Assembly: GCF_900177685.1 (NCBI RefSeq) | Contig: NZ_FXAY01000001.1 | Coordinates: 930,001-994,000, forward strand | Direction of reading: 5' to 3' | From: Agreia pratensis | GTDB taxonomy: Bacteria; Actinomycetota; Actinomycetes; Actinomycetales; Microbacteriaceae | Length of the DNA stretch: 64,000 nt | Shown: positions 10,670 through 61,971 of the stretch, one piece after another | How positions within the stretch are numbered: the stretch's first letter is position 1 | Layout: each line of letters opens with the position of its first letter | Translations under genes and position numbers: made by a program | The notes under the pieces: generated by a model | What the model saw: the letters and a program-made list of their open reading frames with translations, nothing else | What the model was told of the DNA's origin: nothing | The model's database searches: none

Positions 10670-11446
10670 GTGACCGCCATCGATACGTCCGCATCCGTCG
10701 ATTCGCGCCGCGCATGGGAGGTCGTACTGCAGCACATCGAGGCCGATCTGCTCGCGGGGCGACTCGTTCCCGGCGATCACCTGCCGGCCGAGCGCGCGCT
10801 CTCGAGTGAACTCGGAGTCGGCCGATCGTCGGTTCGCGAGGCGCTGCGCGTGCTCGAGGTTCTCGGACTCATCCGCACCCAGACCGGGTCGGGGCCGCAG
10901 TCCGGCGCCATCATCATCGCTCGCCCCTCGGGCGGCATGTCGTCGCTGATGCGCTTGCAGGTCGCGGCGCAGGGCTTCGACGTGCGCGACGTCGTGAAAA
11001 CCCGCCTTGTGCTCGAGGCGGCGGTCGTCACCGAGCTGGCCGAGGCATCCGCGGCCGCCCTCGACTCTGCGCCTCTCGATCTCGGCGACGCCGTGCGGTT
11101 GCTCGACGCGATGGATGCCGATGGCCGGGTTTCCGAAGCAGAGTTCCTCGCCCTCGACGCGGCCTTCCACCTCGCCCTCGCGGAACTCTCGGGAAACGCG
11201 GTGATCGCCTCGATGATGGCGGGCCTGCGCAACTCGATCGAAAGCTACGTTCTCGCCGGCGTGCCGAACCTGCGGTCATGGGCCGAGACATCCGGCCGCC
11301 TGCGGCACGAGCACCGGGCCATCATCGCGGCGATCGAGTCCGGCGATGCCGAGTCGGCGCGCGACATCGTGAACGCCCACATCACCGGCTACTACGCCGA
11401 GACGAATTTCATCTCCACATCCGAACAGAGGACATCCGATGGTTGA
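10670..11446 (+). CDS. lldR: FadR-family GntR regulator, LldR-like
   Basis: 258 aa from GTG 10670 (GAAGGG upstream). The N-terminal winged helix contains [21 protein letters not shown] then [14 protein letters not shown]. The C-terminal FCD domain has the metal-site histidine pattern ([16 protein letters not shown]). It overlaps lldD by 8 bases, so it most probably senses L-lactate and controls its oxidation. The tandem palindrome just upstream is the likely operator. The gene name is given from context and family. Confidence 0.8.
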
Positions 11447-12839
11447 ACGCCGCTTTCCTAACCCCAAAGAACTGCTGCCGCTGATGCAGTTCAAGAAGCT
11501 CGAGCTCGACGGCAAGAAGCGTCGCCTGCAGGGCGCGCTGACCATCGACGACCTGCGCACCATCGCCAAGCGACGCACCCCGAAGGCCGCGTTCGACTAC
11601 ACCGACGGATCAGCCGAGGGCGAGATCTCGCTGAGGCGCGCGCGCCAGGCCTTCCAAGACATCGAGTTCCACCCCTCGATCCTGCGCGACGTGTCGAAGC
11701 TCGACACGACCACGCAGATCCTCGGCGGAACATCGACCATGCCGTTCGGCATCGCCCCCACCGGTTTCACCCGGCTGATGCAGACCGAGGGTGAGATCGC
11801 CGGAGCCGGCGCTGCCGCCGCGGCAGGCATCCCCTTCACCCTCTCCACCCTCGGAACCTCGTCGATCGAGGCCGTCAAGGCGGCGAACCCCACCGGACGC
11901 AACTGGTTTCAGCTCTATGTGATGCGCGAGCGCGAGATCTCGTACGGGCTCGTCGAGCGGGCCGCCGCAGCCGGCTTCGACACGCTGATGTTCACGGTCG
12001 ACACCCCCATCGCTGGCGCGCGACTGCGCGACAAGCGAAACGGCTTCTCGATCCCACCGCAGCTCACCCCGGGCACCATCATCAACGCCATCCCCAGGCC
12101 GTGGTGGTGGTACGACTTCCTCACGACTCCCCCGCTGGAGTTCGCGTCGCTGTCGTCGACCGGCGGCACCGTGGGCGAACTGCTCGACTCGGCGATGGAC
12201 CCCTCGATCGACTTCGACGACCTCGCCTTCATCCGCAGCATGTGGCCCGGCAAGATCGTGATCAAGGGCGTGCAGAATCTCGAGGATTCCCGACGCCTCG
12301 CCGATCTCGGCGTCGACGGAATTCTGCTGTCGAACCACGGAGGGCGCCAGCTCGACCGCGCTCCGATCCCCTTCCACCTGCTGCCCGACGTGGCCCGCGA
12401 GGTCGGCAGCGACGTCGAGGTCATGGTCGACACGGGCATCATGGACGGCGCCGACGTTGTGGCCTCGCTCGCCCTCGGCGCGAAGTTCACCCTGATCGGA
12501 CGCGCCTATCTCTATGGGCTCATGGCAGGCGGGCGCGCGGGTGTCGACCGCACGATCTCGATCCTGTCGGAGCAGATCGTGCGCACGATGAAACTGCTCG
12601 AGGTCGCGTCGATCGACGAGCTGACACCGGCACATGTCACACAGTTGCAGCGTCTCGCCCCGCGTGCTGTCTCGGCGCAGACCGCGGCCGTTGCCGAGAA
12701 GGCGGCCTCGCGACCGGCCCGCGGCACAGCCTCGTCGGCCGGCGCTCGCAAGGCACCTGCCCGCAAGACGGCCGCATCCACGCCCGCCGTCGCGAAGGCT
12801 GCGGCGAAGAAGGTCGAGGCAACGCCCACAGACGCGTAG
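11439..12839 (+). CDS. lldD: FMN-dependent L-lactate dehydrogenase
   Basis: 466 aa. This is the alpha-hydroxy-acid oxidase fold: the N-terminal [11 protein letters not shown], the phosphate/FMN motif around [14 protein letters not shown] with catalytic His300, and [13 protein letters not shown] followed by [14 protein letters not shown]. It oxidises L-lactate to pyruvate, feeding electrons to the respiratory chain. The enzyme ends near residue 400. A further stretch of about 55 residues is almost only Ala, Lys, Arg, Pro, Ser and Thr, which is not usual for LldD. It overlaps the regulator by 8 bases. It can take the L-lactate produced by RhaEW. Confidence 0.92.
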
Positions 12840-48965: not shown

Positions 48966-49912
48966 CGGAGTCCTCCTACCGCGCGAACACGCGCATCGAC
49001 GAAAGGCAGCGCGAGGTCTGCGATCGTGCTGGTCACGACGAAGAGCCCCACTGAGAGCAACGAGATGGCCTGCACGACAGGAAAGTCTCGGCGCGCGATC
49101 GACACGACGAGCAACTGACCGATGCCGTCGACACCGAACGCCGTCTCGACGATAGCCGTGCCGATGAAGAGCGCGGCGAGCAGCAACGCCGTGATGGTCA
49201 TCATCGGGCCCACCGAATTGCGCACGACGTGACGGCGCAGGATGTCCATGCGGGCCACTCCACGGCTACGCGCCACCTCGACGTGCTCGCTCACGAGCTC
49301 TTCGCGGAACGTCGCCCGCATGATGCGCGCGACCAGACCGAAAGTGGCGACCATGAGCGCGATAGCCGGCAGGGTGAGGTGGTAGACCATGTCGCCGAAC
49401 CCGTCCCCCGAACCGGTCGCGGGGAACATCCGGAGCTGCACAGCGAAGACGCCCAGCAGCACTAGGGCCACCACGAACGAGGGCGTCGCGATCGAGAGGC
49501 TGGTGACCACGAGCCCGATTCGATCGATGATCCCCGGTCGGGTAGCCGAGACGAGGGCCATGCCGAGTCCCAGCACAAGAGAGAGTGCGGCTGCGTAGAG
49601 CACCAGGGTGACGGTGGTCGGCATACGAGCAGCGAGCAGGTCGTTCACCGATGACCCGTAGACCATCGACTGGCCGAAATCGAGCTGCAGCACGCTCCCC
49701 AGCCAATGCGTGAAACCACTCACGAAGCCCTGGTTCAGACCGAGCTTCTCGCGCAGTGCCGCCCTCTGCTCGGAGGTGAGCCGCGTGCCGGCGGTGATCG
49801 CCGAAACCGGATCGCCGGGGATGAGCCGGAGGCTGCCGTAGATGACTACGGCAGCCACGCCCATCGTGACGATCGCGGCGAGCAGCCGTGATCCGATCAA
49901 GCGGAAGATCAC
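48962..49912 (-). CDS. Opp-type ABC transporter permease (B subunit), second system
   Basis: 316 aa from GTG 49912, which overlaps the binding-protein stop as GTGA, the coupling used by every other junction in this operon. An ATG at 49936 would overlap by 28 bases and is less likely. The N-terminal helix and SLRLIPGDPVSAI are typical of OppB, as are FGQSMVYGSSVNDLLAARMP (loop) and VARSRGVARMDILRRHVVRN (EAA). Confidence 0.88.
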   Translation of the reverse strand: MIFRLIGSRLLAAIVTMGVAAVVIYGSLRLIPGDPVSAITAGTRLTSEQRAALREKLGLNQGFVSGFTHWLGSVLQLDFGQSMVYGSSVNDLLAARMPTTVTLVLYAAALSLVLGLGMALVSATRPGIIDRIGLVVTSLSIATPSFVVALVLLGVFAVQLRMFPATGSGDGFGDMVYHLTLPAIALMVATFGLVARIMRATFREELVSEHVEVARSRGVARMDILRRHVVRNSVGPMMTITALLLAALFIGTAIVETAFGVDGIGQLLVVSIARRDFPVVQAISLLSVGLFVVTSTIADLALPFVDARVRAVGGLR

Positions 49913-51531
49913 TTGCCGCCCAAGCTGGCCAGCCATGGCGAGTACAGGTAGGACGGTGCCGGGGTGAGACCCGCCAGCTTGCTCGAGTAGTAGGTGTTGA
50001 CGTACTGAGAGACAAGAGGGATCTTGGTCGCATCGGCGGTGAGCAGAGCCTGAGCCTTGGTGACCAGCTCTGCTCGGGCATCGTCGTCGCTGGTCTTGAT
50101 CGCCTGCGCCAGCGTCTCGTCGAACTCAGGATTGGAGTAGCCCGCGAAGTTGTAGTAGCTGCCAGTGGTCGAGTACTCGTAGTAGGCGGCGGGCTCGGGG
50201 AAGTCGAGGTAGCCGGTGGTCAGGAACACGTCGATACCCGCGCGAGCTGCCGGATCGTCGCTGAAAATGCCAGAGTATTCAGCGGGCTGCATCGGCTTGA
50301 GCGTGACCTTGAGGCCGATGCCCTTGGCGTTATCGGCGACCACCGCGGCGATTTTGGTGTCTTCCTCACTGCTCGCTGCGTAAGCGAGCACGATCTCAGA
50401 GCCGTCGTACGAGGATTCGCTGAGCAGCTTCTTCGCCTCGTCGAGGTTCTGGGTTGGTGCGGGCAGCGCGTCGTAGGCCTTCTGGTATATGTCCTTCGAG
50501 TAGCCCCACGCCGACGGTGGCACGATCGCCCTGATCGGCTCGGCGGTCCCGCGGTAGATGGACGACGCTATTCCGTCGTAGTCGATGACGGCTTTGAGGG
50601 CGGCGCGTGTCTTGACATCGGCGAGGCTCCCCTTGAGGTTGGCAACGGACATCGACTCAAGCTTGTAGCTCTTGTTGAACAGCAGATTGCCGATTCCGCT
50701 GAGAGAGTCGAAGGAGGAGACCGGCACCATGAAGGAGCCGTCGACGGAACCGGAGCGCAGCGCAGCGACTTGAGCCGACGGGTCCGAGGTGAAGGTGAAC
50801 GTCGCCGAGCCCACGAGCGGGGTCACGTCTTTGTTCCACCAGGAATCGTTCTTCTTCACGGTGATGTCTGAGCCTGAAGACCAGGTGCCCAAGGAGTAAG
50901 GACCCGTGCACATCACGCCGCCCGAGGCTGTGCCGAAATCGGCACCCGCAGACTCGGCGAAGGCCTTCTCCACCACGCTGAAGGCCGGGGTGGCGAAGAA
51001 TTGCGGCATCATCGCGTTGGGTTCGTTCGTCGCGATGGTGACCTCATCGGGAGCGGTCGCTGTGACCGTCGCCCCCGAACTCGCCCACGCTGTCCACGAC
51101 GAGCCGAGTGCGGGGTCGAGGATGCGGTTGATGCTGTAGACGACGTCGTCTGCGGTCATCGCTTTGCCATCCCAGAAGGTGACCCCGGGGCGAAGATGGG
51201 CAACGTAGGTGGTGTCGTTGATCTTGTCGATCGATGTTGCGAGGCCGGGCTGCAATTCGCCGGAGGGGGTCTGCGTCATGAGCGACTCGCAGAGGTTCGC
51301 GACGACCGTGCTGTTCGACTCGACAGCAGATTGAGCCGGGTCGAGGCTGTAGGGCTCGCCATCCGGCAGGTTCCACGTGACGGAGTCGACGGGTGCCGTA
51401 GCGGCGGACACGTTGTCGACCAGCTTCGGAGTGAAAGCGCTCGTGCTGGAGCCGCTGTTGCTGCAGGCACTCAGCAACAGCACCGAACCGGCCACGCCGG
51501 CCGTCATGAGGATGATTCGTTTGCGATTCAT
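49909..51531 (-). CDS. Opp-type ABC transporter substrate-binding lipoprotein, second system
   Basis: 540 aa. The signal peptide ends in the lipobox L-S-A-C (Cys about 23). The mature protein is of family SBP_bac_5: LRPGVTFWDGKAMTADDVVYS, LADVKTRAALKAVIDYDGI and AKKLLSESSYDGSEI are characteristic. It heads the six-gene operon that ends with the FAD oxidase. Its promoter region holds the GTCA-N4-TGAC palindrome. The ligand is unknown; context suggests a nitrogenous compound. Confidence 0.9.
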   Translation of the reverse strand: MNRKRIILMTAGVAGSVLLLSACSNSGSSTSAFTPKLVDNVSAATAPVDSVTWNLPDGEPYSLDPAQSAVESNSTVVANLCESLMTQTPSGELQPGLATSIDKINDTTYVAHLRPGVTFWDGKAMTADDVVYSINRILDPALGSSWTAWASSGATVTATAPDEVTIATNEPNAMMPQFFATPAFSVVEKAFAESAGADFGTASGGVMCTGPYSLGTWSSGSDITVKKNDSWWNKDVTPLVGSATFTFTSDPSAQVAALRSGSVDGSFMVPVSSFDSLSGIGNLLFNKSYKLESMSVANLKGSLADVKTRAALKAVIDYDGIASSIYRGTAEPIRAIVPPSAWGYSKDIYQKAYDALPAPTQNLDEAKKLLSESSYDGSEIVLAYAASSEEDTKIAAVVADNAKGIGLKVTLKPMQPAEYSGIFSDDPAARAGIDVFLTTGYLDFPEPAAYYEYSTTGSYYNFAGYSNPEFDETLAQAIKTSDDDARAELVTKAQALLTADATKIPLVSQYVNTYYSSKLAGLTPAPSYLYSPWLASLGGK

Positions 51532-51551
51532 GTAGTTAGTTTCTGGGTGTG

Positions 51552-51595
51552 GATATATTTAGTCAATACTGACAATGTAACGAGCATGTTAAAAT
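51552..51595. promoter_or_regulatory. divergent promoter region with operator GTCA-ATAC-TGAC
   Basis: The palindrome GTCAATACTGAC is at 51562-51573. On the minus strand it lies between TTACAT (51575-51580) and TATATC (51552-51557), a 17-base-spaced promoter for the importer. On the plus strand it overlaps CTGACA (51569-51574), a -35 for tetR with TAAAAT at 51590-51595. TAAC-N6-GTTA (51578-51591) is a second inverted repeat. Confidence 0.6.
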
Positions 51596-51620
51596 AATCG
51601 GGCGATAAGACGGGAGACTT

Positions 51621-52229
51621 ATGGGGCGACGATCTCTCGCCACAGAACGACGTCAGCAGATCATCGCTGTCACCATTCAGTGCATGTCGAAGCACGGACT
51701 CGATGGCACGACGCTCGAGCGGATCGCAGAACTCGCCGACATGGCGCGGGGGCACCTCAGGCACTTCGTCGGCAACCGCGATGAATTGCTCACCGACGCG
51801 GCTCGGGTGTTCTTTTTCGGCAACGGGGCGATGGACGAGAAAGATCTGGCCGTCGCGGTCGCCACCATGCCCATCATCCCGCGCAGCCTCGGCGTCGAGG
51901 GGGCACTCACCTTCCTCTTCGACGACTTCGTGGCGCCGAGCTCCGACAGCGCCGCCGTGACAGCATTCATCGACGCGGGTCGCACGATTCCCGCCATCCT
52001 CGAGATCGTCGCGAGCTCGTACCGAAGCATGGAGGTCTCGCTCTCCGAGATCATCAGCGACGAGCATCCACGCGCCCCCGAGGCGAGCTGTCGCCGAGTC
52101 GCCAACGCCGCGATATCGATGGCCGTGGGAACGAGCTTCCTGACCAACATCGAGTACTCCACAGAGCGCATCGCCCACGCTCTCGCGATAACCACATCAC
52201 TGATCGCCGGGCTCGATCAGTCGGACTAG
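51621..52229 (+). CDS. TetR-family regulator of the importer/oxidase/amidohydrolase genes
   Basis: 202 aa; GGGAG precedes ATG 51621. The helix-turn-helix LERIAELADMARGHLRHFVGNRDEL (about 32-56) is a slightly atypical TetR motif. The ligand domain shows VTAFIDAGRTIPAILEIVASSY. It is divergent from the binding-protein gene and convergent with the amidohydrolase (9 bases apart). A shared 15-base site in front of both transcription units suggests it controls both. Confidence 0.88.
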   Translation: MGRRSLATERRQQIIAVTIQCMSKHGLDGTTLERIAELADMARGHLRHFVGNRDELLTDAARVFFFGNGAMDEKDLAVAVATMPIIPRSLGVEGALTFLFDDFVAPSSDSAAVTAFIDAGRTIPAILEIVASSYRSMEVSLSEIISDEHPRAPEASCRRVANAAISMAVGTSFLTNIEYSTERIAHALAITTSLIAGLDQSD

Positions 52230-52238
52230 ACCCGGCGT

Positions 52239-53942
52239 TCAGAACTGCCCGAACACCACCGCTCCCTCGAAGACGACGACCACGGGCTTCACGGCGCCGA
52301 CCTGCCCTGGAGCCAGGTCGAACAGGTCATCGGAGAGCACCACGAGGTTCGCATCCTTTCCCACTTCGAGCGAGCCGACACGATCGTCGATGCGTAGTTG
52401 GCGCGCGGCAGCACTGGTGTATCCGGTGATCAAGCGCTCGAGCGTCAACCGCGAGGCGCTGCTCGGCCGCACACTCTCGGGATAGCGTTCCGCGTCGAGC
52501 GGAAACTCGGGATCGATCCGCGTCATGGCAGTCTGCATTCCGAAGAACGGGTCGGCTCGATGAAGCTCGTACTGCGTCACCACATCGCTCGCGAAGGTGA
52601 GTGTGGCGCCGCTGTCCGCGATCCGGTTGAACTCGTACATACGGCCCCAGCGCTCATCGCCAAGATGCACACGGGCTTCTTCGCCGAAATAACCGCCAGA
52701 CCAATGGTTGGTCCAGTTCACGATGATGCCGAGTTCGGCAGGGCGGTGCATATCGGCGGGGTCGACCAGCTCGCAGTGCGCGAAAGTGACCTGACAGCGC
52801 CAGGGCTCCTCCGCCTCAGTCGCTCGGCCCTGGGCGATCCCCACCGCGTCGCACGCCACCCTGAAGGCACGGTCGCCCACCATGTGGATGTGGATGTCCA
52901 GCCCCGCCCGGTTGATCATCTCAAGACAGTCGACGAGCTCGGGTGTCTCCATCTGGATTTCACCACGGTCTACGCCCGTCGGGTCTGTCGCCATCGGCTC
53001 GATCACGGCACTGTTGCCGCTCTCATTCGTGCCGTCGAGAAAGAGTTTCAGAGTGCGGATGCGGGCGCGCGCGCCGCCGAATCGCGCTTCGTAGCCGTGG
53101 GCCACCTCGATCGCCTCCGGCAATCCGGCCAGGGTGCGGAACCGCGGCGCTCCTTCGTAGTGGAAGGGGAATCGGCGTTCGCGGTCGAGTTGGGATACGG
53201 CCTCGAGAATGCGGTCGTCGTGCACGAGCGCCTCGAACAGCCCCGTCACACCGTGCCGGGTGAGGAAATCGAAGAACGGCCCCACGGTCTCCGCGGTGAC
53301 CTCCTGCGGTGGCCTCCAGTCGATGCGCTCGTACAGGCGCTCGATGAAGTGCATGTAGGCGGTCTCACGAACGTGGCCTGTCGGCTCGCCGTCGGCGTCG
53401 CGCACGAACATCTCCAGCCCCGGCCTGGGGTCGGGAGTGTCCTTCGTGACCCCGAGCAACTCGATCATTCTCGAGTTCACCCACGACGAGTGGTCACTCT
53501 GATCCTGCAGCAGCACGGGCCGGTCGCTGATCGCGGTGTCGAGGAGCTGCCTGGTCGGCGCATCGCCCGCAGAGAAGATCGTGCTCGCGTAGTACTCGAA
53601 GTAGAGGTACGGCGCCTCTTCTTTCGGATGCTCCTGGCCGTAGCGCCGCACGAAGTCGAGGATCTCCTCGAGATCGTCGGTCAGAGGAAGCGCCGTGTGC
53701 CAAGCGCTCTGAACGACCATGGTCGGATGCGTGTGGGCGTCGATCAGACCCGGCAGCACGAGCCGGCCACCCAGGTCATGCACGGGCGAATCCCCCGCAT
53801 CCGGAGCCTCATCGGCCGCACCTACGAAACAGAGCCGACCCTCGCGCACGACAACGGTATCCGCCCACGGATTCGCGGGATCCTCGGTGTAGAAGCGCCC
53901 ATTCGTGAGCGTCAGGGATGCACCGATCGGATTGTTGGTCAT
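52239..53942 (-). CDS. amidohydrolase (Amidohydro_3, YtcJ-like)
   Basis: 567 aa from ATG 53942. The metal-dependent hydrolase fold is clear: GGRLVLPGLIDAHTHPT (first metal site), DIHIHMVGDRA and VTFAHCELVD (further His ligands), FASDVV (Asp) and the C-terminal VGSLEVGKDANLVVLSDDLF. These enzymes cleave C-N bonds in amides, cyclic imides or formamide-like groups. No Shine-Dalgarno is present, and the promoter at 53950-53978 places the transcript start at the ATG, so the mRNA is probably leaderless. It may act in the same pathway as the FAD oxidase at 44859-46268. Confidence 0.88.
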   Translation of the reverse strand: MTNNPIGASLTLTNGRFYTEDPANPWADTVVVREGRLCFVGAADEAPDAGDSPVHDLGGRLVLPGLIDAHTHPTMVVQSAWHTALPLTDDLEEILDFVRRYGQEHPKEEAPYLYFEYYASTIFSAGDAPTRQLLDTAISDRPVLLQDQSDHSSWVNSRMIELLGVTKDTPDPRPGLEMFVRDADGEPTGHVRETAYMHFIERLYERIDWRPPQEVTAETVGPFFDFLTRHGVTGLFEALVHDDRILEAVSQLDRERRFPFHYEGAPRFRTLAGLPEAIEVAHGYEARFGGARARIRTLKLFLDGTNESGNSAVIEPMATDPTGVDRGEIQMETPELVDCLEMINRAGLDIHIHMVGDRAFRVACDAVGIAQGRATEAEEPWRCQVTFAHCELVDPADMHRPAELGIIVNWTNHWSGGYFGEEARVHLGDERWGRMYEFNRIADSGATLTFASDVVTQYELHRADPFFGMQTAMTRIDPEFPLDAERYPESVRPSSASRLTLERLITGYTSAAARQLRIDDRVGSLEVGKDANLVVLSDDLFDLAPGQVGAVKPVVVVFEGAVVFGQF

Positions 53943-53978
53943 AAATGACAATCTATTGCATGGCGATACCGGGGCCAA
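53938..53978 (-). promoter_or_regulatory. leaderless promoter with operator on the amidohydrolase start codon
   Basis: On the minus strand TTGGCC (53973-53978), 17 bases, TAGATT (53950-53955), then the palindrome GTCA-TTTA-TGAC (53938-53949), which contains the ATG (53940-53942). Read on the plus strand, GTCATAAATGACAAT agrees with GTCAATACTGACAAT at 51562-51576 at 12 of 15 positions. Confidence 0.65.
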
Positions 53979-54008
53979 GCACAGTCGATCGGGGAGCTTT
54001 CGACGACA

Positions 54009-54042
54009 AGGCCCCCAGCGCCACGAGCGACGCTGGGGGCCT
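54009..54042 (-). terminator. hairpin terminator after the ugpB-like gene
   Basis: Perfect 12-base arms AGGCCCCCAGCG (54009-54020) and CGCTGGGGGCCT (54031-54042), 10-base loop, starting 11 bases past the binding-protein stop. There is little T-tract, as is usual in high-GC actinobacteria. It separates the Ugp-like operon from the amidohydrolase promoter. Confidence 0.8.
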
Positions 54043-54053
54043 GCGAGGCGGCG

Positions 54054-55406
54054 TCAGCCGGCCGCCGTGTTGTACGCCGCGATCTGATCCGCAGCCTTCG
54101 ACTCGGCGTCCTTCATCGTCGATGTGACGTCGGCACCCTCGACGATCTGGTTGAACGCACCGATGACCGTGGCACGCACTGTCGGGAACGCGCCCGTACG
54201 GCATCCGGCTGCGGCCTGACTGGCCGGCGTGTTCGCCAGCTGACCGGCCATCGACGCGACGTTCGGATCGGCGAGCGACTGCTTGCCCACCGTGGTGTCA
54301 CCGGCCGCGGTGTTCGATGCAAGGTAGCCGGTGGCACTGGCCCATTCGGCCTGCACGTCGGCGGAGTGCAGATAGGTGAGGAACTCGTACGCCGCCTTCT
54401 GCTGAGCTTCGGAGTGCCCGTCGCCGGAGATCCACAGAGCGTTTCCGCCGATCACAACACCGGCATCCTTCGACTCGGAGGTCTTCGGGAAGGCAGCGAC
54501 CGTCGAGGCCGTCTTATTCGGGTCGGCGGTGGTGTACGCCCCAGAGGAGGTCATCATCATGCCCACCTTGTCGCTGGCGAATGCCGACACCATGGCGCTG
54601 TTGTCTGTGCCGGGATTCAGTGCGGTTCCGTCTGAGAACAGCTTCTGCAGCGTGCTCATAAACGCGACCTGCGTGGGCGAGGTCAGGTCGAGACCCGTGA
54701 CCTTGTCGGAGCCGCGGCCATTCTCGGGGGTGCAGAAGTTCTCGCCGCCCGAGGCAGACATCTCCTCGAGCATCCACGAGTCGCTCATGTTCATGGTCAT
54801 GCCGTACGCGCCCGACGCGGCGTGGATCTTCTCAGCCCAATCGGCGACCTCGGCCACCGTCGTCGGGGGCGTGTCCGGGTTGAGCCCGGCCTGGGTGACC
54901 AGGGATCGGTTCAGGTACAACACCGGCTGCGACACCGAGAACGGCATTGCCGCGAGGCCCCCGGATGCCGCCGCGTAGTACGAACTGACGACCGGCGGAA
55001 AACTGTCGGCGTCGAACGACGAGTCCTTGTCGGTGAAGGTTGACAGGGGCGTGGTCTTCTTCGAGTCGACCATGAAGCCCGTTGCGATGTCGTTCATCAT
55101 CAGCACATCGGGCGTCGATCCCGACTGCACGGCGGCGGTGTACTTGGTCTGCAGATCGGCATATGCGCCCTGAAACGAGGCGTCGACCGTGATCTTGCCC
55201 GCCTCTTGCGCGTTGAACTTCGACACGAGTGTGTCGAGCTCGGTTGCCGCGGGGCCCGTCATCGCGTGCCAGAACGTGAGGGTCACGGGTCCGGATGCGG
55301 TGGCCGAGTCGGCGTCGGAGCCGGCCGCCGCGCATCCGGAGAGGGCGAAGAGGAGCGCCGTGCCAGCGGCTGTAGCCGCGACGAGGGTGCGATGACGAAA
55401 GGACAT
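54054..55406 (-). CDS. UgpB-like carbohydrate ABC transporter binding lipoprotein
   Basis: 450 aa; AGAAGGAA precedes ATG 55406. The signal peptide ends in L-S-G-C (Cys about 25). The mature start VTLTFWHAMTGPAATELDTL resembles UgpB (glycerol-3-phosphate and glycerophosphodiester binding) more than maltose-type proteins, and GFMVDSKKTTPLSTF follows. It binds its ligand outside the membrane for the two permeases encoded upstream. No ATPase is encoded in the cluster, so it probably uses a shared MsiK/UgpC-type ATPase. The phosphate-ligand hint agrees with the phosphatase and phosphoesterase genes in the same regulon. Confidence 0.85.
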   Translation of the reverse strand: MSFRHRTLVAATAAGTALLFALSGCAAAGSDADSATASGPVTLTFWHAMTGPAATELDTLVSKFNAQEAGKITVDASFQGAYADLQTKYTAAVQSGSTPDVLMMNDIATGFMVDSKKTTPLSTFTDKDSSFDADSFPPVVSSYYAAASGGLAAMPFSVSQPVLYLNRSLVTQAGLNPDTPPTTVAEVADWAEKIHAASGAYGMTMNMSDSWMLEEMSASGGENFCTPENGRGSDKVTGLDLTSPTQVAFMSTLQKLFSDGTALNPGTDNSAMVSAFASDKVGMMMTSSGAYTTADPNKTASTVAAFPKTSESKDAGVVIGGNALWISGDGHSEAQQKAAYEFLTYLHSADVQAEWASATGYLASNTAAGDTTVGKQSLADPNVASMAGQLANTPASQAAAGCRTGAFPTVRATVIGAFNQIVEGADVTSTMKDAESKAADQIAAYNTAAG

Positions 55407-55450
55407 AGTTCGGGATTCCTTCTGCTCGGGTTCTAGGTGGTGATCGGGTT

Positions 55451-56296
55451 CTACTTGAGGGCGCCGGCTATGATGCCGCCGGCCAGAAATCGCTGCGCAA
55501 GGAGCACGACGATGAGTACGGGGAGGGTGACGATGGCGGCTCCAGCGAGCACGACGCCCACGTCGGTCGCCTCGGAGCTCGAGAGCTGGGCAATACCCAC
55601 CTGCACGGTTCGGTTGTCTGGTGAGTTGGTGACCAGGAGGGGCCAGAAGAATCCATTCCAGGCTGCCGTGGCACTGACCAGAGTCACCGAGATCAGCGTC
55701 GGCCGGACAACGGGCAACAGCATCGATCGAATGAAGCGGAAGTGTCCGGCCCCGTCGAGCAGCGCCGCGTCACGGAGCTCGCCCGGAAAACTCAGGAATG
55801 CCTGGCGGAACAGGAAGATGCTGAGAGCAGAGGCGACGAAGGGCAGGAAGACGGCGGTCACGGTGTCGATGAGGTGCCACGACGAGATCGTGAGGTAGTT
55901 GGCGATAAGGGTCGTCTCTGCCGGGATCATCATGCTCGACAGGAGGACCAGAAAGAGCGCTCGGGTGCCACGCAGGCGACAGAAGACGAGCGCGTACGCT
56001 GCGGCGATTCCGATCGTGACCTGGAGCAGCGTCTGGCAGACGGTGACCACGACACTGTTTCCGAATTGCTTTCCGAGCGGAATGACCTGGGTGGCACGGA
56101 TCACGTTGTCGAGCGTGAGATGAATGGGCACGAGCCCTTCCAACCCCTGATCGAGCCACGCCGTCGGCGTGAGGGCGCCCTCGAAGATGTAGTACAGCGG
56201 AAAGCACACGACGATCACCGCCGCGACGAGCCAGACATAGAGCAGCGCGCTGCGCATCCGGGCACGTTTCGACGCACGTCTTCTCGGCGGCCGCAT
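55451..56296 (-). CDS. carbohydrate ABC transporter permease (UgpE/MalG-like)
   Basis: 281 aa from ATG 56296 (ATGA overlap with the upstream permease). A very basic N-terminus (RPPRRRASKRAR) precedes six helices. The EAA motif is GELRDAALLDGAGHFRFIRSMLLP, split as ELRDAALLDGAGHFRF and IRSMLLPVVRP. It is the second channel subunit of the Ugp-like importer. A gap of 44 bases leads to the binding-protein gene. Confidence 0.88.
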   Translation of the reverse strand: MRPPRRRASKRARMRSALLYVWLVAAVIVVCFPLYYIFEGALTPTAWLDQGLEGLVPIHLTLDNVIRATQVIPLGKQFGNSVVVTVCQTLLQVTIGIAAAYALVFCRLRGTRALFLVLLSSMMIPAETTLIANYLTISSWHLIDTVTAVFLPFVASALSIFLFRQAFLSFPGELRDAALLDGAGHFRFIRSMLLPVVRPTLISVTLVSATAAWNGFFWPLLVTNSPDNRTVQVGIAQLSSSEATDVGVVLAGAAIVTLPVLIVVLLAQRFLAGGIIAGALK

Positions 56297-57240
56297 CAGT
56301 AGTTCACCCGCTTCTCGAGAACGCCGAATTGCACGAGTGACAACGCCAGCACGAGCACGAAGAGCACAACGCCGAGCGCAGCAGCCAGGCCGAAGTTGGC
56401 GCTGCCCGCACCGAATGCCGACTGGTAGATGTTGTAGACGAGAGTCGTGGTGGAGTTCGCCGGCCCGCCTCCCGTGAGGATCTGGATCTGACCGAACGTG
56501 GTGAGTGCCTCGACGGCCCCGGTCACCACGATGAAGAAGAGCGTGGGTGTCACCAGTGGCAGAGAGATCGACCAGAGGGTTCGAAGGGGTCCGGCGCCGT
56601 CGAGATGCGCGGCCTCGATGACGTCGTTGTCGATGGCCCCGAAGGCGCCGAGCATCAGCAGCACGGTGAACCCGATCGAGCCCCATACCGTGACCACGAT
56701 CACGCTCCCGAAAGCCCACTGCGTACTGGTGAAAAAGGGGATGGCAGAGCCGCCGAAGCGCGTGATCACCGAGTTGACGAGACCATTGCCCTGGGCGAGC
56801 ATGGCGGCGAATGCGACGGAGGCCGCCGAGACGCTGACGACCATGGGCGAGGTGAGCAGAGCCCGGAACACGGGGACGCCGCGGAGCTTCGTCGTCAGCG
56901 GAATGGTGATGAACAGCCCGAGCACGATGCGCCCGGCCACCACCGCCAGGCAGAACGCGCCGGTGCGCAGCATCGTGGCGATGAACTGCGGATCGGTGAA
57001 GATCGTGATGTAGTTCTTCGCGCCCACGAAGCCCGCGGCCTGGCCGAAGATATCTGTTCCCTGCGTGCTGAGCCAGAAGACCTTGCCGAGCGGATAGAAC
57101 ACGAAGACAGCGAATGCCGCGAAGGCGGGGAGAAGCAACGCGATGCCGACACGGCGATCAGAACGAAGCCAGGACTGCGCTGACGGCGCCCGGCGCCGAC
57201 TCAGCGCGACGCGTCGCTCTGTGGTGATGGAGGCCGACAT
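56296..57240 (-). CDS. carbohydrate ABC transporter permease (UgpA/MalF-like)
   Basis: 314 aa from ATG 57240. Six helices are preceded by a basic N-terminus. LKVFWLSTQGTDIFGQ-like sequence after helix 1 and the EAA loop DVIEAAHLDGAGPLRTLWSI are typical of UgpA/LacF permeases. It is first in the leftward operon ugpA-ugpE-ugpB. The palindrome AGGGAACGTTCCCT lies 20 bases upstream of its start, where LacI binding would block it. Confidence 0.88.
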   Translation of the reverse strand: MSASITTERRVALSRRRAPSAQSWLRSDRRVGIALLLPAFAAFAVFVFYPLGKVFWLSTQGTDIFGQAAGFVGAKNYITIFTDPQFIATMLRTGAFCLAVVAGRIVLGLFITIPLTTKLRGVPVFRALLTSPMVVSVSAASVAFAAMLAQGNGLVNSVITRFGGSAIPFFTSTQWAFGSVIVVTVWGSIGFTVLLMLGAFGAIDNDVIEAAHLDGAGPLRTLWSISLPLVTPTLFFIVVTGAVEALTTFGQIQILTGGGPANSTTTLVYNIYQSAFGAGSANFGLAAALGVVLFVLVLALSLVQFGVLEKRVNY

Positions 57241-57260
57241 TCAGCATCCTTTCGGATAAT

Positions 57261-57274
57261 AGGGAACGTTCCCT
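57261..57274. promoter_or_regulatory. LacI-family operator, copy 1
   Basis: AGGGAACGTTCCCT is a perfect 14-base palindrome with the central CG usual in LacI-family sites. It lies in the 164-base divergent region between the ugpA-like gene and the IMPase gene and can control both. An identical copy is at 58996-59009. Confidence 0.85.
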
Positions 57275-57404
57275 TTCTGGAACGGGTCAACTCTCCGACA
57301 TCCCCACCGGTGCGGTCAAGCGGCACGAGCATCCGGTCGCCGAGCGTTCACGCGTCGTTAAGGAAGACCTGAATCAATCCCTATCAACCCGAACAGGAGC
57401 ACCC

Positions 57405-58238
57405 ATGACCCCCGACACGAATGACGACCCCAACGAGCTCGTGCGTCTCGCCGAGAACGCAGCTCGAACCGCCGCCCCCGCCCTCATCGCGGGGTTCCGA
57501 TCCGAGATGGACATCTCGTTCAAGCGAGACGCCCACGACGTGGTCACCAAGTACGACCGCGAAGCCGAACGCGTGATCAGCGAGGTGCTGCAGTCAGGCG
57601 CCCCCGGCTCACAGATTCTCGGCGAGGAGACAGGCAGCTCAGGAGAGGCGCGGCTGCGCTGGATCATCGACCCCATCGACGGCACGGCGAACTTCGCGCG
57701 CGGCCTCGCCTACTGGTGCGTCTCGATCGCCGCCGAGGTCGATGGCGAGGTGGTCGCGGGAGTTGTACTCGACCCGATGGCAGACCACCTCTTCGCCGCG
57801 GCCGACGGCGAGGCCACCCTTGACGGCACGCCCATGCGATCAGCCTCGGCCTCCGACGACCGCTCCACCCTGCTCACGAGCTTTCCGAACCAGCACGATG
57901 TCGATCTGCTCGGCGACGCAGCTTTCGAGCTGCTCGCTCAGATCACGAACGACTACCAGCACCACCACAGCACCGGCAGCGGTGCGCTGAATCTGGCGCA
58001 TGTCGCGGCCGGCTGGTCTGATGCGACGATGGGCTTCGACACGAGCCCGTGGGATGTCGCGGCCGGCGCTCACATTCTGCGTCGCGCGGGCGGCAACTAC
58101 GCCGGCTTCCGCGAGGGAGTCGCCGTCGACCGCCCGCAAGAGAGCCTCGATTATGTGGCGACGGGAGCGGGCGGCGACCACAGCGCCCTCATCGCTCGGG
58201 TGCGCGAGCTCTCGTCTCGCTGGTTCCCGGCGGCCTAG
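57405..58238 (+). CDS. inositol monophosphatase-family phosphatase
   Basis: 277 aa; AGGAG precedes ATG 57405. The lithium-sensitive phosphatase motifs are complete: GEETG (73-77), WIIDPIDGTANF (86-97, metal Asp/Asp and Thr) and WDVAAG (about 216-221), followed by LRRAGG. Family members remove phosphate from inositol-1-phosphate, histidinol phosphate, fructose-1,6-bisphosphate or PAP; this one is closest in motif style to inositol monophosphatase. It diverges from the Ugp-like operon across a LacI operator, which places it in a catabolic setting rather than histidine synthesis. Confidence 0.88.
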   Translation: MTPDTNDDPNELVRLAENAARTAAPALIAGFRSEMDISFKRDAHDVVTKYDREAERVISEVLQSGAPGSQILGEETGSSGEARLRWIIDPIDGTANFARGLAYWCVSIAAEVDGEVVAGVVLDPMADHLFAAADGEATLDGTPMRSASASDDRSTLLTSFPNQHDVDLLGDAAFELLAQITNDYQHHHSTGSGALNLAHVAAGWSDATMGFDTSPWDVAAGAHILRRAGGNYAGFREGVAVDRPQESLDYVATGAGGDHSALIARVRELSSRWFPAA

Positions 58239-58245
58239 CAAGAGA

Positions 58246-58294
58246 CCGGATGCCGCGGGCCGCCGCAGATGCGGCCGCGGCCCGCGGCATCCGG
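58246..58294. terminator. bidirectional hairpin terminator
   Basis: Perfect 18-base arms CCGGATGCCGCGGGCCGC (58246-58263) and GCGGCCCGCGGCATCCGG (58277-58294) with a 13-base loop. It fills the gap between the convergent IMPase and 2H-phosphoesterase genes (stops at 58238 and 58303). Confidence 0.9.
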
Positions 58295-58302
58295 CCCCGG
58301 AG

Positions 58303-58959
58303 TTACTCGCCGGTCAGCTCCCAGCTGTGCACGTGCTCCCACGTCATCGTCTTCCACCAGCGACCCGACCAATCGGGGCTGGCCGTGCGATACATCACAA
58401 CATTGCGCCCTGCGAACGAGGTCGGCACGGGTACCTCGAGCTCTGCGATGAACTCGCCCACCTCGTCGCGCAGATCAGGCCTCTCGTAGAGGTCGTGCGA
58501 GGCCAGCGACAGATGCCCGCGAAACAGCTCGGGCACGAAGTCATTGGGCAACGGGTTGTTCATGGGGCGCCTGAACCTCTCGACGGTGGCCTCGATGTCT
58601 CGAGCGAGGCTCACGAGCGCATCATTCACGGTGCCGTCGGCGTTCTGGCTCACGTCGTAGACATAGCCCATTCCCGGCGACCGGATGCCCGCGTTGTGCA
58701 CCTCGAATGCCTCGCGCTCCGCGAGCAGCGCGGTCACAGCCGCGATGACCTCGTTCTCGTTGAAGCCGAAAGGCTGGCTGCCGACGAGGGTGGCGTGCGG
58801 GGGAAACGCACCCGCCGAGAGCAGCCCGTACTGGGCTCGCAGCTGGTCGGTGATCACGGTCACGGCGCGGCAGGTCTTCGCGTCGGGGCGCAGGTAGATG
58901 CCGTAGCGGTAGGGGTCGCTGTCGTCGCGGGGCAGCTTGTGGGCGATGTGGTCGTTCAC
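58303..58959 (-). CDS. 2H phosphoesterase-superfamily protein (2'-5' RNA ligase/cyclic phosphodiesterase fold)
   Basis: 218 aa. Two H-x-(T/S) motifs mark the fold: PPHATLVG with His55 and Thr57, and RGHLSLAS with His149 and Ser151, about 94 residues apart. The superfamily includes RNA 2',3'-cyclic phosphodiesterases, 2'-5' ligases and enzymes that open sugar cyclic phosphates. It is cytosolic, with no signal peptide. A 16-base LacI-type palindrome lies 36 bases before its start. Co-regulation with an ABC importer and a phosphatase suggests it acts on an imported small cyclic or diester phosphate, not RNA. Confidence 0.82.
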   Translation of the reverse strand: MNDHIAHKLPRDDSDPYRYGIYLRPDAKTCRAVTVITDQLRAQYGLLSAGAFPPHATLVGSQPFGFNENEVIAAVTALLAEREAFEVHNAGIRSPGMGYVYDVSQNADGTVNDALVSLARDIEATVERFRRPMNNPLPNDFVPELFRGHLSLASHDLYERPDLRDEVGEFIAELEVPVPTSFAGRNVVMYRTASPDWSGRWWKTMTWEHVHSWELTGE

Positions 58960-58994
58960 ACGATCTCGCTTTCTGAGGTGAGTGTCGTTCGGGA

Positions 58995-59010
58995 TAGGGA
59001 ACGTTCCCTA
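58995..59010 (-). promoter_or_regulatory. LacI-family operator, copy 2
   Basis: TAGGGAACGTTCCCTA is a perfect 16-base palindrome whose core equals copy 1. It lies between the lacI stop and the 2H-phosphoesterase start, giving that gene its own regulated promoter. Confidence 0.85.
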
Positions 59011-59089
59011 TTGTCTGACACAACAACGACGAGACACGTGAACGCCCAGGCGTCCAGTTAGTGAACGAACGGTAACGACGGTTCTCGGC

Positions 59090-60166
59090 CTACGCCGACA
59101 GAGCCGCGGCCGTTCTGCCCGGGATGAGCTCGCCGTCGATCGAGCGATGCCGCGCCCCCTGCGACAGACCTTCGATCTGGTCGACCACATCGTCGACAGA
59201 CAGTCGACCGATGAGATTCAGCGGCTGGCGCCACGAGGTGAATCCGAGAAGGCTCGACGTGAAGGGCTTCACCCCGTCGTAGCCGGTCACGGAGATGTCG
59301 TTCGGGGCGGTAAGGCCTCGCAGCTGCAGCGACTCGAGAACCGCGAGAGCCCACGAGTCGCTCGGCGCCATCAGGGCGGTGACGCCGCCGGCGTCGAGGA
59401 TCGCCTGCACGATGCTGTCGGTGCCCTCGATCTCGAGGCCGTAGTCCTCGCAGCGGAACGGCAGAACGTCGACCCCGGCGTCACGCAGGTGCTGCACCAT
59501 GGCCTCGGTTCTCGCCGACTGGGTGAGCGAGGATGCCGCCGTGTGCGTCATCACGGCGACCCGCCGGTGGCCGAGCTGAACGACGCGTTCGGCCATTCCC
59601 CGGCCTCCCCCGACCTCGTCGCAGTAGACGCTGCTCACCGATGGGTCGGTCTCAGGCCGGCCCGCGATGACAGTGGGAATGCGATGTGCGAAGGGAATGA
59701 TGTCTTCGACGGGCAGCGCACCGCTGCACACGATCAACCCCTCGACGCGAAGCGACACCAGAGTCTCGAGAGCGCGGCGCTCCTCCTCGATCGAGAAAGA
59801 GCCGGATCCGGTGGCCGTTACCGCTCGGTATCCCCGGGCCGATGCCTGTTCCTGGAACGCCGTGAGGAGGTGACCATAGAACGGCGTCGCGGCATCCCGA
59901 ACGAAGACACCCAACGTATGAGTGCGATGAGCCGACATGCCTCGCGCGTTGGCGTTAGCGACGTACCCCATCGCCTCTGCCGCCGCTTTGACCTTCGTGA
60001 CGGTACGCGCAGCCACCCCGGGCGCGCCCGACAGAGCCCTCGAGACGACCGACTTCGAGACGCCCGCGGCCGCTGCGACATCGTGGATGGTGGGGACCGA
60101 ACCGGGAGGGCGCTCGCCCGGCGCGCGACCCACGGGCTCATTGTCTTCGGGGGTCAGCTCGCGCAC
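59090..60166 (-). CDS. LacI-family regulator of the Ugp/IMPase/2H-phosphoesterase genes
   Basis: 358 aa. The helix-turn-helix and hinge are VPTIHDVAAAAGVSKSVVSR and ALSGAPGVAARTVTKV (about 24-59). The periplasmic-binding-protein-like sensor domain follows (TLGVFVRDAATPFYGHL, then SVTGYDGVKPF). GTG 60166 begins directly after AGGAGG with no spacer, so GTG 60133 is an alternative start; both keep the DNA-binding domain. It lies 4 bases after the tetR stop, so the two may be cotranscribed. Two matching palindromes nearby are its likely operators. Confidence 0.88.
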   Translation of the reverse strand: MRELTPEDNEPVGRAPGERPPGSVPTIHDVAAAAGVSKSVVSRALSGAPGVAARTVTKVKAAAEAMGYVANANARGMSAHRTHTLGVFVRDAATPFYGHLLTAFQEQASARGYRAVTATGSGSFSIEEERRALETLVSLRVEGLIVCSGALPVEDIIPFAHRIPTVIAGRPETDPSVSSVYCDEVGGGRGMAERVVQLGHRRVAVMTHTAASSLTQSARTEAMVQHLRDAGVDVLPFRCEDYGLEIEGTDSIVQAILDAGGVTALMAPSDSWALAVLESLQLRGLTAPNDISVTGYDGVKPFTSSLLGFTSWRQPLNLIGRLSVDDVVDQIEGLSQGARHRSIDGELIPGRTAAALSA

Positions 60167-60170
60167 CCTC

Positions 60171-60770
60171 CTACGCTATCGGGCGTGCGACCGCGGTAGT
60201 GGCTTCGAGCACCAGCTCGAGCGCCTGCCGCTGACGGCTCGCCGGCCACCGCTCTGGATCGCCCGCCGCGAGGGTCGACACACCTTCGACGGCAGCTGCC
60301 AAGGTCGACGCCCGCTCACGAGCACCCACCGCATCACTGGCGCCCGACGCTTCGAGCAGTCGTACCAGACGCGTCGCAAATGCCCGACTGTGCAGCGCAT
60401 GACGCTCGGCCAGAATCGGGTCACTCAATGCGGCGGCCAGAAAGCCGATCCAGACCCTGGCTTCGGCGAGCTTCTCGGAGTCGCTCGGCAGGGCGTGGAA
60501 GACGACATCGCGCAGTGCCGTCGCCGCATCGGCAGCATCGCTTTCGAGCGCGTCCGAGCGCACCCGCGTGCGCTCGTGCAGAACGTCGCGTGCGTGCAGG
60601 AGCAGTTCTCGCTTGTCGCGGAAGGTATGCAGGACAAGACCGGTCGAGCACCCCGCTCGTTCTGCGACCGCCCGGAGCGTCAACCCGGTCGGCCCGCGGT
60701 CGGCGAGAGTGAGAAAGACTGCTTCAGACAAGCGCTGTCGAGTCGCTTCGTCATCTCGAACACGGGGCAT
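60171..60770 (-). CDS. TetR-family regulator
   Basis: 199 aa from ATG 60770. The helix-turn-helix LRAVAERAGCSTGLVLHTFRDKREL (about 32-56) is typical. The ligand domain begins with DVLHERTRVRSDA. It is divergent from the GNAT gene, and the 51 bases between them are largely filled by two overlapping palindromes (60778-60810), so it probably represses itself and the acetyltransferase. It is followed without a gap by lacI. Confidence 0.88.
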   Translation of the reverse strand: MPRVRDDEATRQRLSEAVFLTLADRGPTGLTLRAVAERAGCSTGLVLHTFRDKRELLLHARDVLHERTRVRSDALESDAADAATALRDVVFHALPSDSEKLAEARVWIGFLAAALSDPILAERHALHSRAFATRLVRLLEASGASDAVGARERASTLAAAVEGVSTLAAGDPERWPASRQRQALELVLEATTAVARPIA

Positions 60771-60821: not shown

Positions 60822-61316
60822 ATGAACTGGAAGATCGCCCCCGTCGACTACGACCACCCCGACGCCGATCGGCTGAGACGTGAACAGCGCCGAGAACTCG
60901 ACGCGCGATACGGAAGCAGCGACCACGAACCAGGAATCCCTCCCTCCGCCGACGACGTTCCCGTGTTTCTGGTCGCCACAGATCCCTCCGGCCGCGCCAT
61001 CGCCTGCGGAGGGCTGCGCCCCCTCGACGATACGGTCGTCGGAGCGCACTCCGTAGAGATCAAACGAATGTATGTGGTGCCGCAGGCTCGAGGCACAGGG
61101 GTGGCGACCGCCGTCCTGAGAGCCCTCGAGGCCGCGGCCGCCACGTTGGGAGCGCATCGCGTCGTCTTGGAGACGGGAACCCAGCAGCCCGACGCCATCC
61201 GGTTCTACGAGCGCGAGGGCTACGAGAGCATTCCCCTTTTCGGGTCATATATCGGAGGGGCCGAGTCGGTGTGCTTCGGACGACCCGTTTCTGCCGTCAC
61301 TCCAGCTGCGCCATGA
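60822..61316 (+). CDS. GNAT-family N-acetyltransferase
   Basis: 164 aa; AAAGGA precedes ATG 60822. The acetyl-CoA motif A is VEIKRMYVVPQARGTGVATAVLRALE (Q-x-R-G-x-G-x-A near 90-95), and FYEREGYESIPLFGSY is motif B. It transfers acetyl from acetyl-CoA to an amine; the substrate is unknown, possibly an antibiotic or toxic amine given the TetR partner. Its last 20 bases overlap the convergent HAD gene. Confidence 0.88.
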   Translation: MNWKIAPVDYDHPDADRLRREQRRELDARYGSSDHEPGIPPSADDVPVFLVATDPSGRAIACGGLRPLDDTVVGAHSVEIKRMYVVPQARGTGVATAVLRALEAAAATLGAHRVVLETGTQQPDAIRFYEREGYESIPLFGSYIGGAESVCFGRPVSAVTPAAP

Positions 61317-61971
61317 CGGCTTCTTCAATGCCCTCACGGTGTGCGCCGTAACGATCCACCAGCAAGGCACTCATGCCTACCGCACGTGCCCCATCGATGT
61401 CATGCAGGGGGTTGTCTCCCACGAACAGACATTCCTGCGGCGCGACGCTGAGGCCCGCCGCCAGCAGGCGAAAGGCCGCGGGATCGGGTTTCTGCACGCC
61501 GATGCTCTCGGAGATGCAGACGTGGTCGAACACCTCGAGCAGTCCGGTGACGCGCAACTTGTCGAGTTGCTGCTCCTCAGCCCCGTTCGTCAGCAGCCCC
61601 ACCCGGCGCCCCGTGGCCTTCACCCGCTGCACCAGCTCTACGCTGTCTTCGAAGGAACGCCAGGCCGCCCTGTAGCCCCTCAGGTACAGGGCGAACAGCG
61701 CGTCGAGGTCGGCCGCCTCGGTGGGAGCCTGCACTCCCAGTGCCGGCAGCACGGTTCGTAGTCGCTCGCGGCGCTGCTCCTGAAAGTCGATCCGTCGCGA
61801 GCGCCAACGTTCGAGCTGTTCCTCTTCGGCGGCGAACCAGAGTGCGCGGGCATCCTGCGAGGGCCCGATTCCGAGCGATTCGAGAAAACGGTCGACACCG
61901 ACGATCGCCGAACCGCGATGGTCGAACAGCGTGCCGTCGAGGTCGAACCCCACCGCTCGAATCTCGACCAT
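61297..61971 (-). CDS. HAD-family hydrolase (PGPase/haloacid dehalogenase-like phosphatase)
   Basis: 224 aa. The HAD motifs are in order: GFDLDGTLFD (Asp10, Asp12), VGLLTNG (motif II), GVQKPDP (motif III lysine) and VGDNPLHDIDGA (motif IV). The helical cap (about 16-100) makes it a C1-type small-molecule phosphatase. The substrate is unknown. It is convergent with the GNAT gene, with a 20-base overlap of coding ends, and divergent from the esterase gene. Confidence 0.88.
   Translation of the reverse strand: MVEIRAVGFDLDGTLFDHRGSAIVGVDRFLESLGIGPSQDARALWFAAEEEQLERWRSRRIDFQEQRRERLRTVLPALGVQAPTEAADLDALFALYLRGYRAAWRSFEDSVELVQRVKATGRRVGLLTNGAEEQQLDKLRVTGLLEVFDHVCISESIGVQKPDPAAFRLLAAGLSVAPQECLFVGDNPLHDIDGARAVGMSALLVDRYGAHREGIEEAVMAQLE

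Follow-up and report, generated by a model that had tools for sequence, protein, structure and literature searches.

A LacI-linked gene cluster of Agreia pratensis with a Ugp-like importer and a 2H phosphoesterase: a putative module for phosphodiester catabolism

Genes and palindromes of the locus

The genome of Agreia pratensis (3,582,686 bases, ~3.58 Mb) was studied in a 64-kb stretch, called the window here, whose positions serve as the gene coordinates below. Between 54054 and 60166, the window holds genes for a Ugp-like importer, an inositol-monophosphatase-family phosphatase (IMPase), a 2H phosphoesterase, and a LacI-family regulator, together with two copies of the exact palindrome AGGGAACGTTCCCT. 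A sequence-only reading of this DNA had proposed that a single LacI regulon joins all of these parts.

The importer genes lie on the reverse strand. The first encodes a lipoprotein solute-binding protein (SBP; 54054–55406; SBP_bac_8, 3e-36) whose best NCBIfam match is UgpB, at 190.5 bits against an equivalog cut-off of 411, and it is therefore named only UgpB-like; its closest PDB relatives are UgpB 6x84 (E 1.5e-46) and 4aq4 (E 5.6e-46). Two permeases with BPD_transp_1 domains follow, one UgpE-like (55451–56302; best NCBIfam match UgpE, 3.4e-37, with 128.7 bits against a cut-off of 297) and one UgpA-like (56296–57240; best match UgpA, 2.5e-46, with 158.9 bits against 335). Thus, among the NCBIfam models, all three importer proteins come closest to the parts of a Ugp importer, but they fall far under the equivalog cut-offs, and the locus differs further from a Ugp system in its LacI gene, its palindromes, and the lack of both an importer ATPase and a GDPD in a Pfam scan of ten window genes. 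The ATPase is assumed to be a shared one encoded elsewhere.

On the forward strand, the IMPase gene (57405–58238) encodes a member of the Inositol_P family (PF00459; 3.3e-50; 171.5 bits against a cut-off of 27), and its closest PDB match is inositol-1-monophosphatase 2qfl (E 3.7e-34). Beyond it, again on the reverse strand, stand the 2H gene (58303–58959) and the gene for the LacI-family regulator (59090–60166), in which the helix-turn-helix (HTH) domain (PF00356) and the sugar-binding domain (PF13377, Peripla_BP_3) both score above their cut-offs.

The 2H protein reaches 20.1 bits against Pfam PF13563 (2_5_RNA_ligase2), below the cut-off of 27, so that it is not filed in that family, and it has no NCBIfam match; its 2H nature was therefore checked by fold. 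With the predicted model (pLDDT 78.6), the top rows of a structure search were 2H enzymes, namely YjcG (Z 16.1 over 164 residues at 2.7 Å), the plant Appr>p cyclic phosphodiesterase AtCPDase (Z 15.8, 177 residues, 4.0 Å), and LigT (Z 14.8), whose scores are counted as near ties. Given this predicted fold and the two motifs H55-A-T57 and H149-L-S151, the protein belongs to the 2H superfamily. It is the sole PF13563 match, still sub-cut-off, in the Agreia pratensis genome at E 0.01. While it resembles YjcG, plant CPDase, and LigT in predicted fold and motifs, it is only 14–16% identical to them, sits in an importer cluster, and bears a C-terminal signature of its own (W197, G199, W201, W202, and W213), which, like H55, T57, and H149, is invariant across 14 aligned 2H sequences, the window protein included. 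No PDB sequence matched the protein at E 1 or below, and the best hit of a profile search, a thioesterase at E 0.018, was taken as chance.

The kinship of fold with cyclic-nucleotide and RNA enzymes (plant CPDase and LigT are among the nearest solved structures) raises the alternative that the locus scavenges RNA, with 2',3'-cyclic nucleotides or short pieces of RNA entering through the importer, the 2H enzyme opening the cyclic phosphate, and the phosphatase making nucleosides. The fold, however, is common to all 2H enzymes and is no pointer to RNA.

The two exact palindromes, treated here as putative LacI operators, lie where the sequence-only reading had placed them. Operator 1 (57261–57274) lies upstream of two starts, that of the ugpA-like gene (57240) at 20 bases and that of the IMPase gene (57405) at 130 bases; operator 2 (58996–59009), between the 2H and LacI genes, precedes the 2H start (58959) by 36 bases. 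When three mismatches are allowed, two palindrome matches per 64 kb are no more than chance would give (mean of 1.78 in shuffles, of which 56 of 100 reach two), and the significance of the palindrome resides instead in the exactness of its core. The exact 12-base core occurs only twice in the whole genome, both times at this locus, and the reversed-pattern control gives 0.

Distribution in actinobacteria and linkage to the importer

Searches with the 2H protein recovered 9 carriers among 199 genomes at the family level and 5 among 396 at the order level, Agreia pratensis included, while at the phylum level Agreia pratensis stood alone among 396 genomes; at the order and phylum levels, seven candidates per genome were scored among the matches listed, so that distant copies can be missed. 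Two small families yielded 2 of 12 and 1 of 13 genomes, and a further family of the order (f9; 200 genomes) yielded seven matches, of which five were full-length and two were fragments (E ~4e-4) that were dropped. Elsewhere, 10 loci were found in named genome contigs, and one in 72,556 plasmid records. This gives 24 non-duplicate carrier genomes in several actinobacterial families: four Agreia; two Microbacterium testaceum; the metagenome-assembled genomes M105 (two contigs, counted once) and S3C2912; G004; G109, G034, and G166 of genus g35; G024; Leifsonia sp. ALI-44-B; PS02332; G314; G354; G309; G389; G1132; G1121; G1114; G977; and a conjugative plasmid of Paenarthrobacter sp. OM7. Such a patchy distribution suggests horizontal movement. 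For most relatives, genes were placed with a simple codon-usage caller and tblastn rather than from curated annotation, and the plasmid permeases were counted from the annotation of the record.

A Ugp-like (CUT1-type) permease pair stands in the same cluster as the 2H gene in 20 of the 24 carriers, and a LacI gene in 22 (all except G314 and G389). Permease matches in G314 (25–30% identity, 6.5 kb away, beside another gene set) were left out of the first count. Gene order varies considerably: LacI-2H-UgpA-UgpE-SBP in G004; HAD-LacI-UgpA-UgpE-SBP-2H in G354 and G309; UgpA-UgpE-SBP-2H-LacI in G024 and three f9 genomes; UgpA-UgpE-SBP-LacI-2H in G977; and SBP-2H-UgpA-UgpE-2H in the Leifsonia type. 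The last has two 2H genes in each cluster (L020:8262–8951 and 10867–11487; L030:3427–4029 and 5836–6450). Next to the 2H cluster of another locus is a CRISPR-like array (L019:6521–7931) with a GGATCATCCCCGCTACGCGGGGAGCAC-type repeat of mostly 60-base period.

The palindrome follows the 2H gene. Its full 14-base form occurs in 7 of the 199 family genomes, in exactly two copies each (reversed-pattern control, 0), and all seven are among the nine family carriers of the 2H gene (hypergeometric p 1.6e-11); by genus, the co-occurrence is 3 of 3 among 5 of 85 genera (p 1e-4), kinship not having been removed from either figure. It is missing from the other two family carriers, the divergent G024 and G115. 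Additional copies of the core were found at the 2H loci of G354 (three), G309 (two), and G977 (one, between the ugpA and PiT genes), and the Paenarthrobacter plasmid has two, as perfect palindromes of 20 and 22 bases. Altogether, the core is present at the 2H locus in 16 of the 24 carriers, the named Agreia and Microbacterium loci included. Hence, the gene set and palindrome proved to be conserved in relatives, as the sequence-only reading needed.

Genus g35 provides a case of linkage at a distance. Its three genomes have a 2H gene and a LacI gene, with one palindrome, and no adjoining transporter; the second exact palindrome of each genome stands over 2 Mb off in contig coordinates (~0.7 to 0.8 Mb if the contigs are circular). 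In all three it proved to lie upstream of a UgpA/UgpE/SBP-like operon of its own, as had been predicted before that DNA was read. In G109, one of the three, the operon under the palindrome ends in a GDPD.

This arrangement bears on another alternative, in which the 2H gene is a passenger, an unrelated RNA-repair gene adjoining a plain sugar importer. It is true that 2H proteins are common (PF13563 matches in 11 of 14 control genomes) and that IMPase-family enzymes take many substrates, including sugar phosphates such as galactose 1-phosphate. A passenger would hardly be expected to cluster with the permeases in so many carriers and in several orders, or to be joined to them by the palindrome in three more, and the phosphate-binding residues described below are likewise at odds with a plain sugar importer. 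This alternative is considered very unlikely.

Co-occurrence and a comparison of recognition helices suggest, indirectly, that the LacI-family regulator may bind AGGGAACGTTCCCT. Twelve of the 22 linked LacI proteins were compared. The helix SKSVVSR, present in the window regulator, occurs in 8 of 8 proteins having the palindrome at their locus, and the four without an exact palindrome have other helices: SRSTVSR, SRATVSR (twice), and SKSAVSR. The last belongs to L020, where two imperfect versions of the palindrome occur. The identities of 2H and LacI proteins are also correlated (r 0.83 over 66 pairs from 12 loci, which are not independent pairs). Two LacI proteins (L074:10408–11604 and L057:8761–9900) have an extra N-terminal transposase-type HTH (HTH_Tnp_1; E 1.5e-10 and 1e-5) ahead of the LacI HTH.

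The binding pocket and phosphate-chemistry partners

In UgpB, the phosphate ligands are Tyr64, Ser143, Ser266, and Tyr342, and Trp188 and Trp191 form a clamp (Phaeobacter numbering; PMC12718374). The window SBP keeps the phosphate quartet as Y82, S159, S287, and Y361. The full Tyr/Ser/Ser/Tyr quartet occurs in 19 of the 22 SBPs that are linked to the 2H gene or lie under the palindrome, near-identical relatives included, and three of its four residues occur in G977; among the other SBPs that the window SBP finds in the Agreia pratensis genome, none of three has any of the four. The expectation that the binding protein would look like a phosphate binder is therefore borne out by its residues. 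The first clamp tryptophan is replaced in all 22 (by M, T, Q, L, H, or G; M207 in the window SBP), while the equivalent of Trp191 is retained in 20 of the 22. Since the quartet is kept and the first clamp tryptophan is lost, the pocket would appear to fit a phosphodiester or other larger phosphate compound rather than glycerol 3-phosphate. A predicted model of the SBP (pLDDT 41, from five sequences in the alignment) was not used.

The same pocket can be read in two other ways. One is that the locus is a Ugp system for molecules of the glycerophosphocholine type, in which the 2H enzyme replaces a cytoplasmic GDPD. The nearness of the SBP and permeases to Ugp would suit it, as would the Asp/Gly/Arg of the glycerol site, which the window SBP retains in common with the Ugp importer (the arginine is missing from the g35 SBPs, and its placement differs between alignments), and the GDPD that terminates the operon under the palindrome in L045. 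Yet the use of glycerol 3-phosphate needs neither an IMPase nor a HAD phosphatase, the Agreia pratensis genome already has three GDPDs, all away from the 2H locus, and we know of no 2H enzyme that acts on acyclic glycerophosphodiesters. Glycerophosphodiester scavenging is therefore judged improbable. The other reading is the scavenging of RNA, in favor of which a UgpB relative binds the dinucleotide U3G via the same phosphate quartet (PMC12718374). Against it, no nucleosidase, nucleoside kinase, or nuclease was noticed beside the loci, most neighbors having been read by eye, and five relatives carry a GDPD-domain protein instead; RNA scavenging, too, is thought unlikely.

The neighbors of the 2H gene in relatives point to phosphate-ester chemistry and to the release of phosphate within the cell. 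A HAD protein stands beside LacI in four carriers, all of which are without an IMPase. The GDPD-domain protein just mentioned has a signal-like N-terminus and catalytic motifs (both read by eye), measures 762 to 801 residues in four cases, and occurs at the loci of G024, G389, G1132, G1121, and G1114; its gene is on the opposite strand in G1121, where it matches as two pieces, and in G1114. It gives weak matches to the PDB (best E 2e-5). Of the 200 f9 genomes, five have it at E 1e-30, and four of these are among the five full-length 2H carriers (p 3.8e-7); in the fifth, G1133, the contig ends just beyond LacI, at the expected place of the 2H gene. Finally, PiT phosphate transporters flank the operon in six carriers (five identified with Pfam, the one in G1121 by similarity), with a DUF47 gene also present in five of the six.

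The window has a HAD gene of its own at 61297–61971, which was rejected as a member of the module. Other open reading frames stand between it and LacI, and the HAD proteins at relatives' loci are closer to each other (E<=1e-20) than to the window protein (E 1e-13 to 1e-4). On the SBP side of the module, positions 49909–53978 hold a family 5 solute-binding protein, a TetR regulator, and an Amidohydro_3 enzyme, with no link to the module seen. No Rfam match was found within 53900–60300. On the Paenarthrobacter plasmid, galE is annotated downstream of the 2H gene (L057:10925–11944), a possible hint of a galactose ligand from one case only.

A putative module for phosphodiester catabolism

Taken together, these observations argue, with a probability of roughly two in three, that a LacI-controlled module at this locus serves the catabolism of a small phosphodiester, cyclic or linear, of a sugar or polyol. 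Outside the cell, the diester would be bound by the UgpB-like lipoprotein and then brought in through the UgpA/UgpE-like permeases, with a shared ATPase probably supplying the power. The 2H enzyme would then hydrolyze the diester to a monoester, from which a phosphatase would free the sugar or polyol, this being the IMPase here and perhaps the HAD protein in some relatives. LacI would occupy AGGGAACGTTCCCT upstream of ugpA and the 2H gene until an inducer released it; the diester, or the monoester formed from it, is the probable inducer. Candidate ligands include glycerol cyclic phosphate, inositol cyclic phosphate, glycerophosphodiesters, and xanthosan-like dimers; the inositol scheme favored by the sequence-only reading is thus one candidate among several.

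Two published systems offer precedents. In Xanthomonas, the 2H enzyme XanP, with HxT and HxS motifs, hydrolyzes the cyclic sugar phosphodiester xanthosan to galactose 1-phosphate for nutrition (PMC12807533), which shows that a 2H enzyme can carry out this step on such a compound. As proposed for Agreia, the 2H phosphoesterase serves nutrition alongside a transporter and a regulator encoded at its locus; there, however, XanT is TonB-dependent and XanR is a ROK protein, in place of an ABC importer, a LacI regulator, and an additional phosphatase (PMC12807533). The likeness to XanP is one of 2H class and motifs. In Agrobacterium, the agrocinopine acc genes encode an ABC importer for a sugar phosphodiester, the phosphodiesterase AccF, the phosphatase AccG, and the repressor AccR, whose effector is the monoester product arabinose 2-phosphate (PMC4526662). 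The parallel lies in the importer, diester-cleaving enzyme, phosphatase, and regulator, and the proposed release of LacI by substrate or product is drawn by analogy with AccR; AccF, on the other hand, is termed a phosphodiesterase and not a 2H protein in the available text of that source (PMC4526662). The remark that a described set of this composition is not known accordingly needs qualifying: the whole set was not found among the open-licence PMC papers listed, which is weak evidence of absence, while the acc and XanT-XanP systems are precedents built of other parts. The acc importer and regulator belong to families other than Ugp and LacI.

Several observations weigh against the proposed module. 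The sequence-only reading had counted the IMPase as part of the regulon; the link between importer and 2H gene is indeed conserved in several actinobacterial families, but the IMPase is optional, being present at 8 of the 24 carrier loci and not found at 16. The 24 carriers are related, several of them closely, and so their counts are not independent tests. G314 has a solitary 2H gene with neither LacI nor a Ugp-like pair nearby, and G977, an f9 2H carrier, has no GDPD-domain protein. The g35 operon under the palindrome is not orthologous to that of the window, its permeases being 33–41% identical and its SBP giving no match to the window SBP. The Leifsonia-type clusters L020 and L030 depart further: their permeases are just 29–36% identical to those of the window, their SBPs have no phosphate quartet (a single tyrosine in L030 in one alignment), and each has one 2H copy whose second HxS/T motif reads HxG. 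A search of 53950–60250 found no sigma-70 promoter. XanP, as reported in the available text, is specific for xanthosan, and xanT/xanP are not induced by it (PMC12807533). The proposal and the outcomes for the earlier claims are drawn from sequence and predicted structure.

A broader and more tentative possibility, rather less probable than the module itself, is that these clusters represent an actinobacterial nutrition system for cyclic phosphodiesters in particular. The GDPD-family enzyme beside the cluster, apparently secreted in some relatives, might act on lipids or wall polymers to free the cyclic phosphate of a sugar or polyol. Such chemistry has a parallel in the phospholipase D (PLD) toxins of spiders, which originate from GDPDs (PMC6299612) and show that GDPD-related enzymes can release cyclic phosphates (PMC3756997). 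The Ugp-derived importer would take up the cyclic phosphate, the dedicated 2H enzyme would open its ring, and the phosphatase and PiT would handle the freed phosphate. The system would then parallel, in Gram-positive bacteria, those for xanthosan and agrocinopine, and would be patchy in plant and soil bacteria, with one occurrence on a conjugative plasmid.

The present analysis ties a 2H family, by gene cluster and palindrome, to an importer whose binding protein carries phosphate-binder residues, and the natural substrate of the family can thus be sought directly. Should the ligand turn out to be cyclic, the module would give actinobacteria a way to feed on cyclic phosphodiesters, and it would hint that these compounds serve as a currency more widely, on plants and in soil, than is apparent from the two published systems.

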